64,000 nt of DNA from Clostridium ljungdahlii. GTDB lineage: Bacteria > Bacillota > Clostridia > Clostridiales > Clostridiaceae. The notes under the pieces were generated by a model. That model did not search any database and had not been told where the DNA came from. It saw only the letters and a list, made by a program, of their open reading frames with translations. The stretch is from assembly GCF_001636845.1 (NCBI RefSeq), contig NZ_LITT01000062.1, positions 186,001 through 250,000 on the forward strand, given 5' to 3'. A program made the position numbers and the translations under genes. Shown here in pieces: positions 9,695-24,647 of this stretch (within the stretch, counting starts at the first letter, position 1; every line of letters starts with the position of its first letter).

Positions 9695-10861
9695 ATGAAT
9701 ATTTTAAGGGCATTTACTATAGAGCAAATACAAATTATAAATTTAATAAAAGCTATATGTAAAAGTAATGGTATAAAGGCTTATATAGTAGGAGGGGCCG
9801 TTAGAGATGCGTTCCTTGGAAATAAAGTAAAAGATATTGATATATGTATAGACAAAAATCCTAATTTTATTATAGGTAAATTGAATGGAATTAAATGCTT
9901 TCAGTATTATGATAAATTCCAAACAGCTTCTTTGTTATTTCAAAATGAGATAAATATAGACTTAATAAGGTGTAGAAAAGAATACTATGCTAGAGATGGT
10001 GAACTTCCTATAATTGATCCGTCGAACATATACGATGACTTGCGAAGAAGAGACTTTACGGTTAATGCATTGGCTTATGATATAGTAACAGGAAGTTTAA
10101 TAGATATTTATGGTGGATTGGAGGATATAAAAAATAAAAGCCTACAAAAGATACATTTAAATAGTTATAGAGAAGATCCTACTAGAATATTCAGAGCAGT
10201 AAAGTATGCAGTAAGGTATGGTTTTGATTTAAAAGATAAGGATGAAATAATTAGTTGTGTGAATGAAGGCGTGTTTAATTTGATAAGCAATGATAGAATG
10301 GTGAAGGAAATATACCTCTTATGTGAGGAAAAAATGTGGATAAAAAATATTTTAATGTGTGGTAATTTGAAGATTTTTAATGTTAACAGAGAAAAATTAG
10401 AAATAGGAAACGAAAACTACAATAATACAGATAAAAGAATTTTAAGATTATTTTATGCGCTTGAAGACAAAAAGTGTGCTCATATATTGGGTGAAAATTC
10501 AGTCTTGGATAGTAAGTTAAAAATTTCAATAAAAAATTTTACAGAAAATTATCAAAAAATAACCGGCGCAATTCTAAATGCTATGGATAATTATGAGTTG
10601 TATAAAATATTAAGGAGCATAAATGACTATGGACTTATACTTTTAAAATGGAATGACAAACTTAAGTATAAGATTTATAATTATGTTCATAATATGTATC
10701 ATTATAAATCATCTTTAAATGGAAAATTCATAAGTTCTATTGGAATACAAAATGGAAAAGCTATAGGAGAAGTTTTAAATTACATGACAAAGATTGAATT
10801 AAATTCTATGATAAAGTATGGAAAAAAATATTTAGTAAAAAATTTAGGAGAGATTATTTAG
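9695..10861 (+). CDS. cca: CCA tRNA nucleotidyltransferase / poly(A) polymerase family
   Basis: Class II nucleotidyltransferase that adds or repairs the CCA end of tRNA. The 388-aa protein has the GGAVRD motif, the DID metal-binding aspartates, RRRDFTVNALAYD and EDPTRIFRAVKYAVRYGF, all in the first 190 residues. The C-terminal half is divergent and has no HD domain. Its stop abuts the scpA start with no gap, implying one transcript with scpAB. Whether it adds CCA or poly(A) cannot be decided from sequence alone. Confidence 0.88.
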   Translation: MNILRAFTIEQIQIINLIKAICKSNGIKAYIVGGAVRDAFLGNKVKDIDICIDKNPNFIIGKLNGIKCFQYYDKFQTASLLFQNEINIDLIRCRKEYYARDGELPIIDPSNIYDDLRRRDFTVNALAYDIVTGSLIDIYGGLEDIKNKSLQKIHLNSYREDPTRIFRAVKYAVRYGFDLKDKDEIISCVNEGVFNLISNDRMVKEIYLLCEEKMWIKNILMCGNLKIFNVNREKLEIGNENYNNTDKRILRLFYALEDKKCAHILGENSVLDSKLKISIKNFTENYQKITGAILNAMDNYELYKILRSINDYGLILLKWNDKLKYKIYNYVHNMYHYKSSLNGKFISSIGIQNGKAIGEVLNYMTKIELNSMIKYGKKYLVKNLGEII

Positions 10862-14662: not shown

Positions 14663-14999
14663 GGGTTTCTAAGTAGAAAGTTTACTTATACCAGCCATAT
14701 ACTAACAAAAATCATCACACTAAAAACTTTTTATAAGTCTAAAGTTCAGTATTTAGAAAATCTAAAGAAGCTTATATAAACTCGTACCTCAGACATATAT
14801 AAGCTTCTAAGATTTTCTAAAATACTTCACTAAGACTTATAAAAAAAGTTTTTAAGTGTGATTTCAATTTTGTTAGTATATCATATATATAAGTCAAAAT
14901 TTCAATTAGAATCACTATGGATATTTATTTTACAATCTATATATAGGCTTTCTAACTTAAAAATATCCGAAGTATAAGTTGATTTTTCGTTTGGAAACC
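14663..14999. repeat. Large palindromic repeat element, copy A
   Basis: Terminal inverted repeats (GGTTTCTAAG...ACTTATAC and its reverse complement near 14969-14999) enclose a long hairpin. Arms of about 80 bases, 14697-14778 and 14795-14881, pair over most of their length around an 18-base core AAACTCGTACCTCAGACA at 14778-14795. The same core recurs in opposite orientation at 63594-63611. No ORF. It fills the gap between the convergent carboxypeptidase gene and the hypothetical gene at 15014. Confidence 0.8.
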
Positions 15000-21761: not shown

Positions 21762-21819
21762 TTGCAGTGGAGCAAAGTTTAAATTTGTTGATATTAATAA
21801 TATAATTAGAGTAATATAA

Positions 21820-21852
21820 AAAATGTGCTGCGATTTTGCAGCACATTTTTTA
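21820..21852 (+). terminator. Intrinsic terminator of the rnf operon
   Basis: ATGTGCTGC pairs with GCAGCACAT around a short loop and is followed by T6. Strong, GC-containing stem at the expected place after rnfB. Confidence 0.88.
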
Positions 21853-21924
21853 TCCGATTGCTACCATTGCTAACACCCCTCATAGCACTTTGTGATAGGG
21901 AGGATAAGCACTGCTGCGCACCTG

Positions 21925-22055
21925 GATAAGTTCTTCCCTTAAAGGATAACGTATTCTAAGTGCTAAAGACACTAAGAATACTGTTAATAAGGTTCAAATG
22001 GAGAAAAGGTATTCCTTATAAGCAAACTCCACCTGAACCTAAGAATCACTTGATA
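21925..22055 (-). ncRNA. Structured repeat element, copy 1 (possible ncRNA)
   Basis: Shares with 23117-23244 the blocks AAAGGATAACG, TTCTAAGTG...CACTAAGAA and CTGTTAATAAG, then a long hairpin. In this copy GTATTCT (21951-21957) pairs with AGAATAC (21975-21981), and 21990-22003 pairs with 22027-22040. The two A/C oppositions of the long hairpin become G-U pairs only on the minus strand, which suggests minus-strand transcription. It lies between the rnfB terminator and the 3' end of the Gx-transporter gene. No known RNA family recognised. Confidence 0.55.
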
Positions 22056-22067
22056 CCTATGGTGGAG

Positions 22068-22586
22068 TTATTTATTTTTTAAATCTTTAAACATAGGAAT
22101 TTTATATAAGTTATTAGTTAGGAATTTCACGCACCAACCTATAAAGTATCCTGTGATTATAGCAGAGATTAAAAGCACTGGTAGATATATGTATATTCTA
22201 AAGTCTTGAATTACTATAGAAGCTACTAAAAGTTGACCTATATTGTGAAATATTGCCCCACATATGCTTATAGTCCATAGACTTAAGGAATCTTTAAAAT
22301 ATTTGTATAGAAAAATCATAACTATGTTACTTAAAATTCCTCCGGCTATGCTGAACATAAAGGTAGACATTGTTCCACCGAACATAGATCCTAGAAGCGT
22401 TCTTAAAAACATAATTAGTAAGGCTTCTTTCCATCCTATAAGTATAAGTGCAGCTAGGGAAATTGTATTTGCAAGTCCTAGCTTTATTCCGGGAAATAAA
22501 ACGGGAACTTGAGCTTCTATTATGTATATGACTAAAGCCATGCTTGTTAGAAAGCTTAAAAAAACCATTTTCCTTGTTTTATTCAT
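22068..22586 (-). CDS. Gx transporter / heptaprenyl diphosphate synthase component I family
   Basis: 172-aa membrane protein with five or six helices, a glycine-rich LFPGIKLGLANTISLAAL region and LRTLLGSMFGGTMSTFMFSI. This matches the family annotated as heptaprenyl diphosphate synthase component I or Gx transporter, which resembles ECF-type S components. It follows the NusG-II gene on the same strand and is often found near rnf genes. The real substrate is unknown. Confidence 0.82.
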   Translation of the reverse strand: MNKTRKMVFLSFLTSMALVIYIIEAQVPVLFPGIKLGLANTISLAALILIGWKEALLIMFLRTLLGSMFGGTMSTFMFSIAGGILSNIVMIFLYKYFKDSLSLWTISICGAIFHNIGQLLVASIVIQDFRIYIYLPVLLISAIITGYFIGWCVKFLTNNLYKIPMFKDLKNK

Positions 22587-22614
22587 TAATCACACCTTGA
22601 TTTTAAATATAATT

Positions 22615-22998
22615 TTAACTGGATATATCATCGTATTTAGAATTATTTCCTTCTAGTTTAATTATTAATTTATGGGGAAGACATATAATACTTTGACCTG
22701 GTTCGGATATCCATCCGGTTTTTACACAAATTTTATCAGGGCAATCTGCGTCTTTTATGCGTATTTTACCATTTTCTATTTCTATCAAATTATAGTGAGA
22801 TTTATTGTACTTTACTGTAAGTTCTTTTGTGTTTTTTACTTTAGTTAAGTCTATTGTATCTATAATTTTACCATCTTGCTTTATTACGGCTATTTTATGT
22901 GACCCCTTTACATATGAACGGTATATAAATACTCCAGCACAACTTGCAATTATTAGTATTAAAATTAATACTGCAGCAATTTTATCTCCTTTTTTCAT
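22615..22998 (-). CDS. NusG domain II-containing membrane-anchored protein
   Basis: 127-aa protein with an N-terminal membrane helix (residues 7-28) and an extracytoplasmic NusG-II domain. The signature CPDKICVKTGWIS then PGQSIICLPHK near residues 88-112 is the family hallmark. AGGAGT lies six bases before the ATG at 22998; the ATG at 23011-23013 lacks a site. Likely co-transcribed with the Gx-transporter gene. In other bacteria this pair accompanies Rnf and flavinylation genes; the role here is inferred from context only. Confidence 0.85.
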   Translation of the reverse strand: MKKGDKIAAVLILILIIASCAGVFIYRSYVKGSHKIAVIKQDGKIIDTIDLTKVKNTKELTVKYNKSHYNLIEIENGKIRIKDADCPDKICVKTGWISEPGQSIICLPHKLIIKLEGNNSKYDDISS

Positions 22999-23116
22999 AT
23001 TAACACTCCTCATATGTTGTATAATTACAGAAAATTAAGTGATGACCTATCTATGATTTTACTATAACAAAAGGTCATTTACAATGTTACTGTAATAAAA
23101 ACTTAAATTTTAGTGT

Positions 23117-23244
23117 GATAAACATCTCTAGATAACGATATTCTCTAAAGGATAACGCCTTCTAAGTGTTGAAGCACTAAGAAGCCTGTTAATAAGTATC
23201 AGATGGAGTTAAAACTCCATCTGATACTTAGAAATCTGTTTATC
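23117..23244 (-). ncRNA. Structured repeat element, copy 2 (possible ncRNA or leader)
   Basis: Closing stem GATAAAC (23117-23123) with GTTTATC (23238-23244); a small hairpin CTTCT (23159-23163) with AGAAG (23180-23184); and an 18-bp hairpin 23193-23210 with 23213-23230. The stems keep pairing with copy 1 although bases change (A-T to C-G in the small hairpin; G-C to T-A and T-A to A-T in the long one). On the minus strand it lies about 120 bases before the NusG-II start, so it could be that operon's 5' leader. Confidence 0.6.
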
Positions 23245-24520: not shown

Positions 24521-24647
24521 TTATATCACCTGACAAAAGTATTCTAGATAAAGTTATGTTTGTATTTTGCAGTTTATACCATATAAGATAAAAATTAAAG
24601 AATTATATAAAAAAATTTTGATAGTTAAAAGGAGAGATGGGATACCA

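Follow-up and report, generated by a model that had tools for sequence, protein, structure and literature searches.

A repeated hairpin element of Clostridium ljungdahlii and related clostridia is a short protein-free mobile DNA

What are the two related, structured sequences that flank the NusG-II/Gx-transporter gene pair beside the rnf operon of Clostridium ljungdahlii? A preliminary description of the window (the whole 64-kb stretch of DNA analysed here, to which all coordinates refer unless a locus is named) had placed them at 21925-22055 and 23117-23244. It read them as a two-copy element, probably made as minus-strand RNA, with copy 2 serving as the leader of the NusG-II operon. The two copies do lie at these places, and they share three blocks in the same order and orientation, with direct repeats of 34 nt and 29 nt that are 85-86% identical and about 1205 nt apart. 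The compensatory changes are also there: an A-T pair beside the small hairpin becomes C-G, and in the long hairpin G-C becomes T-A and T-A becomes A-T. The limits had been drawn only in part, since the element of copy 1 spans 21854-22054 and copy 2 about 23123-23243. We conclude that this repeated hairpin element is a short protein-free mobile DNA and not a gene-control RNA.

Copy 1 is a complete type B element of 201 nt (CCGATTG...CACTTGAT, 21854-22054, plus strand), with ends taken from empty sites and alignment. It directly follows the host target TTTAT (21849-21853, plus strand), with which the T tract of the rnf terminator ends. The left-end hairpin (21859-21923, plus strand; approximate limits, from covariation on alignment A2) is followed by the guide GGATAAGT (21924-21931, plus strand), which is complementary to TTATCC at the left end and, with one base unpaired, to ACTTGAT at the right end. 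Then come the optional middle module (21944-21991, plus strand), made up of GGATAACG, the small hairpin TTCTAAGTG/CACTAAGAA and CTGTTAATAAG, the right-end hairpin (21991-22039, plus strand), and the right end ACTTGAT (22048-22054, plus strand), which is placed by the empty-site junction and by its complementarity to the guide. Copy 2 (about 23123-23243, plus strand) is a truncated type A element without a left hairpin, and its nhmmer match covers only positions 67-189 of the model. It retains, all on the plus strand, a guide (AGATAACG, 23130-23137), a middle module (23150-23196), a right-end hairpin (23196-23227) and the type A right end CTGTTTAT (23236-23243), read from the sequence and found in other copies as well. 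Copy 2 is absent from a second genome that we take to be C. ljungdahlii (G003), and its ortholog in C. ragsdalei P11 (G005) is decayed and likewise has no left hairpin. Copy 2 is an old, decayed insertion that lost its left hairpin.

The element is not confined to two copies but belongs to a dispersed, high-copy family. The small-hairpin pattern TTCTAAGTG-N4..10-CACTAAGAA occurs at 41 places in the C. ljungdahlii genome (reversed control, 0), and a BLAST search of copy 1 against that genome gave 49 matches, some fragmentary, with up to 97% identity apart from the self match. A pattern for the left end is found at about 137 places there (G000; control, 0), at 211 places in C. ragsdalei P11, at 168 in G003, and at 86, 50, 38, 26, 17, 13, 5 and 1 places in G025, G004, G009, G010, G008, G011, G006 and G012, respectively. 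It has 0 places in G001, G002 and G007, and controls gave at most 2 per genome. A type A copy was matched in 19 of 59 genomes, the source genome included, with only some of the candidates per genome scored. Among the matches listed, C. carboxidivorans, C. sulfidigenes, C. simiarum, C. tetanomorphum, C. muellerianum, C. liquoris and others have the exact type A stretch, as do contigs from two MAGs, one of Anaerocolumna and one of Peptococcaceae, for which the contig assignment may be uncertain. The family-wide search used sequence patterns and nhmmer. No element was found in plasmid and phage collections or with two IMG/VR patterns, searches in which close records were possibly left out. Rfam gave no match at curated thresholds anywhere in the window, and at E up to 10 there were only chance-level matches with scores below the curated ones; the view that this is not a known riboswitch or ncRNA therefore stands. 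Literature searches and Rfam yielded no description of the family, and we call it undescribed on the strength of these alone.

The family is built to one plan, which reads on the plus strand of the window as left hairpin, guide GGATAAx, right hairpin and right end x'TT.AT. Their lengths, roughly 110-280 nt, are too short for a transposase gene. Forty-four copies (copy 1 and 43 others) can be aligned over their full length, the matches spanning 128-281 nt, and more compact forms of about 112-117 nt also occur. Polarity is fixed, and nearly all copies begin with CCGAT directly after TTTAT or a close variant of it. The right ends are CTGTTTAT (type A), CACTTGAT (type B) and, in further copies, CATTGAT (type C); an additional form, CTCTTTAT, is found in another genus. 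We examined 84 matches in 80 loci (of at least 88). A standard right end lies no more than 110 nt away in 74 of these, and the other 10 are decayed, are cut by the locus end or by N, have a longer right hairpin, or end in GTTGAT or GTTAAT. None of the 84 matches has a gene inside the element.

Two modules account for much of the variation in the interior. The optional middle module sits between the guide and the right hairpin, corresponds to the blocks in the preliminary description, and is absent as a unit from the short forms. In long copies (21944-21991 in the window) it consists of GGATAACG, a hairpin and CTGTTAAT. It resembles a guide, a hairpin and a right end of type A, giving the impression that the element took up a right end in its interior. 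The other module, of about 50 nt, contains a GCGAAAGC hairpin and lies behind the left arm, where it is either absent or present in up to three tandem copies. Up to three such apical modules stand in tandem in loci L106, L095 and L103, indicating that insertions in the loop are tolerated, and the module may be able to spread independently. Whole elements also occur in tandem, the right end TTTAT or TTTAC of one copy being the target of the next.

A candidate for a longer parent element was considered and rejected. In C. liquoris (G017), a gene that looks TnpB-like by eye directly follows the left part of a copy (locus L135, 2960-4600). No matching right end was seen behind this open reading frame, and it is therefore taken as what is probably a nested insertion. 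The family also differs from classical MITEs: its ends (CCGAT at the left, TTTAT or TTGAT at the right) are not inverted repeats, and type B insertions have no target duplication. A separate intergenic repeat of about 210 bp in the window (14696-14908), with long terminal inverted repeats CACACTTAAAAACTTTTT.../...AAAAAGTTTTTAGTGTGA, does look like a classical MITE. Stretches similar to it are present in loci L188, L197, L202, L232, L235, L241 and L298, and in both G003 and C. ragsdalei a hairpin element is inserted inside it.

Movement of the element is recorded in sites that are occupied in one genome and empty in another. Nine distinct insertions have an empty counterpart in a different genome at 95% identity or more: two at the rnf terminator, one at 24607, and L050, L062, L063, L111, L241 and L269, which are C. 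ljungdahlii or C. ragsdalei copies (L241 lies in repeated sequence, and a paralogue may have been taken for its empty partner). In a tenth event, at window site 14776, the flanks are 90-97% identical. In all ten events the empty site is TTTAT followed directly by the right flank, and the ends of the insertions are exact. The rnf terminator was hit in both of its mirror-image T tracts. In the source genome copy 1 lies after the plus-strand TTTTTTAT, where G003 and C. ragsdalei have an uninterrupted TTTTTTAT followed by ACCTATGG; in these two genomes a different copy follows the minus-strand TTTTTTAT, its mirror image (21816-21823), where the source genome is uninterrupted. The sites at 24607-24615 and 14776-14780 (TTTAT), both on the minus strand, are also empty in the window and occupied in G003 and C. 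ragsdalei. Across the 64-kb block there are 2 element sites in the source genome, 3 in G003 and 6 in C. ragsdalei; 1 site is specific to the source genome, none to G003, and 2 to C. ragsdalei, neither of these with a clean empty site.

The type B insertions are particularly informative because their left TTTAT and right TTGAT differ, and a target-site duplication would be visible. There is none in the four type B events (the two at rnf, 24607 and L050). The L050 empty site has one extra T, a one-base difference beside the junction, and the other three are without any difference. At 24607 the right end is TTGAT in C. ragsdalei and TTTAT in G003. In type A insertions, a duplication of TTTAT and an element that itself ends in TTTAT are indistinguishable. 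Flanks were usable in 148 of 171 copies, and self, paralogue and low-identity alignments were excluded from the count of empty sites. Among the excluded alignments, those of L239 and L237, of low identity, agree with insertion 3' of TTTAT, and those of L117 and L110 have TTCAT and TTTAG in the unoccupied sequence instead of TTTAT.

The target is TTTAT. This word is immediately 5' of the element in 135 of the 171 copies, with TTTGT in 8, GTTAT in 5, TTTAC in 3 and other words in the remainder. Only 7 of the 144 copies with assessable genes lie inside an open reading frame. Strand placement does not follow a simple rule. In G003, 36 of 46 long copies are opposite to the leading strand and not on the lagging-strand template, and by a hand count 33 of the 49 exact left ends listed below 2.3 Mb agree with this bias. 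Across the examined loci, the GC skew of the flanks indicates no overall bias, being negative for 61 of 116 copies of type A and 18 of 33 copies of type B. Intergenic TTTAT falls on the lagging strand in 160 of 301 and 204 of 383 cases in two sampled halves, and a slight T-richness of that strand explains at most part of the bias.

The folding of the element is conserved. An unguided RNAalifold consensus of 22 diverse compact copies contains 31 pairs, 17 of which have changes on both sides. In this set 95.9% of paired cells can pair (83.4% after shuffling, at most 46.8% after sliding), and the covariation score is 0.359 (0.125 shuffled, at most 0.083 slid). The outermost helix, recovered both by the unguided consensus and by folding copy 1 as DNA, joins the target and first bases of the element, TTATCC, to the guide GGATAA. 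Within this helix, three sequences have U-A in place of one C-G pair, and the remaining pairs hardly vary. At the other end of the element, the base that follows GATAA and the one that precedes TT.AT are complementary in 133 of 142 copies, with 95 as the best of 2000 shuffles; the 9 misses include parsing errors, since some right ends are misread by the pattern (type C as GATTCAT). Covariation thus supports the left hairpin, the helix between left end and guide, and the match between guide and right end. The copies in which these changes occur are not independent, because subfamilies share ancestry. Still, there are at least four independent guide-right end forms (types A, B and C and the CTCTTTAT forms). 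In the guide survey no copy mixes type A with type B, even though left-hairpin types have recombined with both (L069, L058). Exceptions to the pairing rule are the type D guides GGATTCGT (L126, L133) and L188. Most rows of that survey in which no guide is present look like chance matches of a loose pattern.

Could the conserved fold be that of an RNA? As RNA, three compact copies fold far better than shuffled sequences on both strands (z -4.2 to -12.5), and copy 1 folded as DNA also does better than its shuffles (z -4.3). The preliminary description had favored minus-strand RNA based on two A/C mismatches in copy 1, which would be G-U pairs on the other strand. The mismatches are present in the sequence, but they lose their meaning in the larger family. 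The left stem has 14 G-T and 26 A-C pairs (85 of 92 copies scored) and the right stem 55 G-T and 46 A-C (84 of 92 copies scored). Non-standard pairs favor neither strand, and the stems therefore do not reveal an RNA strand. The position that gave the cue is Watson-Crick in only 16 of 84 copies, with G-T in 28 and A-C in 24. At one right-stem position 68 of 84 copies have a mismatch, which would fit a requirement for an irregular stem.

In the view that we favor, with a probability of roughly 0.6, the element is a small piece of mobile DNA that is non-autonomous and behaves as IS200/IS605 insertion sequence ends do. Single-stranded DNA of the element would fold, and the guide would pair with the left junction TTTATCC, which includes the host target TTTAT. 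The ATAAx part of the same guide also matches the right end x'TT.AT, and the two ends may share the guide during cutting. A DNA-nicking enzyme acting in trans would then cut 3' of both sequences and release the element, which would be joined 3' of a new TTTAT picked by pairing with the same guide. Since the element has no transposase, its left guide lies in a different place and its guide is apparently shared, we do not file it as a proven member of IS200/IS605.

Searches for a helper enzyme covered three families, and no helper was found. Y1 transposases (PF01797, E up to 0.001) are present in 46 of 59 genomes, including those of C. ljungdahlii and C. ragsdalei, and none was detected at that threshold in G003, G004 or G025, which have 168, 50 and 86 left ends. 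Element ends are absent from the 32 Y1 loci examined, a part of all Y1 matches. Reverse transcriptase (PF00078) has 0 matches in G003, and IS110 transposase (PF01548) has 0 matches in C. ragsdalei or G025, with 211 and 86 left ends. Each of the three families thus has no match in at least one high-copy genome. The RAYT-like Y1 gene of the source genome (L042 1000-2200, contig C12:310451) is flanked by a different palindrome, GGTGACAGGCACC, and the IS200-like element on its contig C42 has different ends. In G006, a type B copy appears by eye to lie directly after the 3' end of a RAYT gene (L123/L138, C25 about 10650-10835).

These enzyme searches, together with the distribution of copies, bear on several other explanations. 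The element could have been moved by an ordinary resident IS200-like Y1 TnpA, such as that on C42 or on C55 of C. ragsdalei, and be stranded where the TnpA was lost. Y1 genes are indeed present in C. ljungdahlii and C. ragsdalei and undetected in G003. Copies in the two former genomes (L046, L050, L062, L063, L111, L241, L269) have empty counterparts, either in G003 or in the other of the two, leaving room for a Y1 helper lost from some genomes. No G003 copy was found with an empty site in C. ragsdalei, among the few G003 loci examined. We nevertheless consider a resident TnpA unlikely: the C42 element has different ends, G004 and G025 also have no detected Y1, and the two sites specific to C. 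ragsdalei in the 64-kb block have no clean empty counterpart. We are also doubtful, though a little less so, of a bolder proposal. In this, the family would be a novel class of mobile DNA without proteins, its single internal guide would recognise the host target as well as the right end of the element, and it would be moved by an enzyme widespread in clostridia that is not a Y1 transposase, an IS110 recombinase or a reverse transcriptase.

Two explanations involve RNA in transposition. Group IIC introns insert by pairing-guided recognition, often next to terminators, and are much longer than the hairpin element. A retrotransposed structured RNA of this kind would read TTTAT with its guide, insert after terminator T tracts and use a reverse transcriptase in trans. 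The strong RNA folding (z -9.2 for a compact copy), the likeness of guide-target pairing to EBS-IBS pairing and the rnf insertions at terminator T tracts fit this idea, and strong upstream hairpins are found at 17% of 167 copies and 9% of 600 control TTTAT sites. However, the overall shift in upstream hairpins is not significant (p 0.17), reverse transcriptase has no match in G003, G-T and A-C pairs favor neither strand, and Rfam has no match; we regard this origin as quite improbable. We give even less credence to a derivative of IS110 elements resembling a bridge RNA. Such a derivative would also be short, structured and noncoding with two pairing regions, but C. ragsdalei and G025 have no IS110 match, and type B ends share no duplicated core beyond TT and AT. 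Equally hard to credit is the idea that the family consists of regulatory RNAs or riboswitches and that copy 2 is the leader of the NusG-II/Gx-transporter operon. Covariation and the location of copy 2 upstream of the operon speak for that proposal. The family, however, occupies more than 100 dispersed places, is polymorphic between close species, and shows no preferred gene orientation (the four gene arrangements hold 46, 37, 29 and 25 copies). Copy 2 itself is a decayed insertion missing from G003, and nothing that we found supports a conserved leader function for it.

If the IS200/IS605-like view is correct, then relatives of C. ljungdahlii, an industrial acetogen, carry about 140 to 210 copies of an element that apparently chooses its target by base pairing. 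Variants in which guide and right end have changed together would be a natural series for studies of DNA-guided insertion. As matches to known helper families are lacking from several of the high-copy genomes, what moves the element is a direct and testable question. There is also a caution here, in that structured repeats with covariation can resemble new regulatory RNAs.

Several families of small repeats and insertion sequences have features in common with the element. Clop-1 of C. perfringens and Clot-1 of C. tetani are also dispersed stem-loop families of Clostridium (PMC2267715), and differ in their lengths of 93 and 74 nt. REP and BIME sequences are likewise intergenic, structured and present in many copies, and are thought to be moved by Y1 enzymes (RAYTs), according to PMC6006769 and PMC3733652. 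A REP has 21-65 nt, compared with roughly 110-280 nt here, and the RAYT-like gene of C. ljungdahlii is flanked by a different palindrome. PATEs, derivatives of IS605 that consist of ends only, resemble the element in being short with little more than hairpin ends, and are often moved in trans (PMC7290912). They differ in that no full-length parent with the same ends was found for the element, which also has modular loops, and in copy number, with a single copy described in that paper and many more here.

The closest likeness is to IS200/IS605 elements such as IS608 and ISDra2. The element differs from these in having neither tnpA nor tnpB, in the lack of a detected Y1 gene in three high-copy genomes, and possibly in orientation: placement on the lagging-strand template is expected of IS200/IS605, whereas the G003 copies are mostly opposite and the examined loci have no overall bias. 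The guides of IS608, which pair with its cleavage sites (PMC5934647), each lie 5' of their own hairpin, whereas here the left target matches a guide located 3' of the left hairpin, apparently shared with the right end. Other features are alike. As outlined in PMC5934647 and PMC7290912, IS200/IS605 elements have no terminal inverted repeats and make no target duplication, and they have subterminal imperfect hairpins at both ends. They insert 3' of a fixed tetra- or pentanucleotide that is kept at the left, as IS608 does with TTAC (PMC5934647) and our element with TTTAT. Finally, at their right end the cleavage site is paired to a guide that precedes the hairpin on its 5' side, and the corresponding match is found in 133 of 142 copies here.
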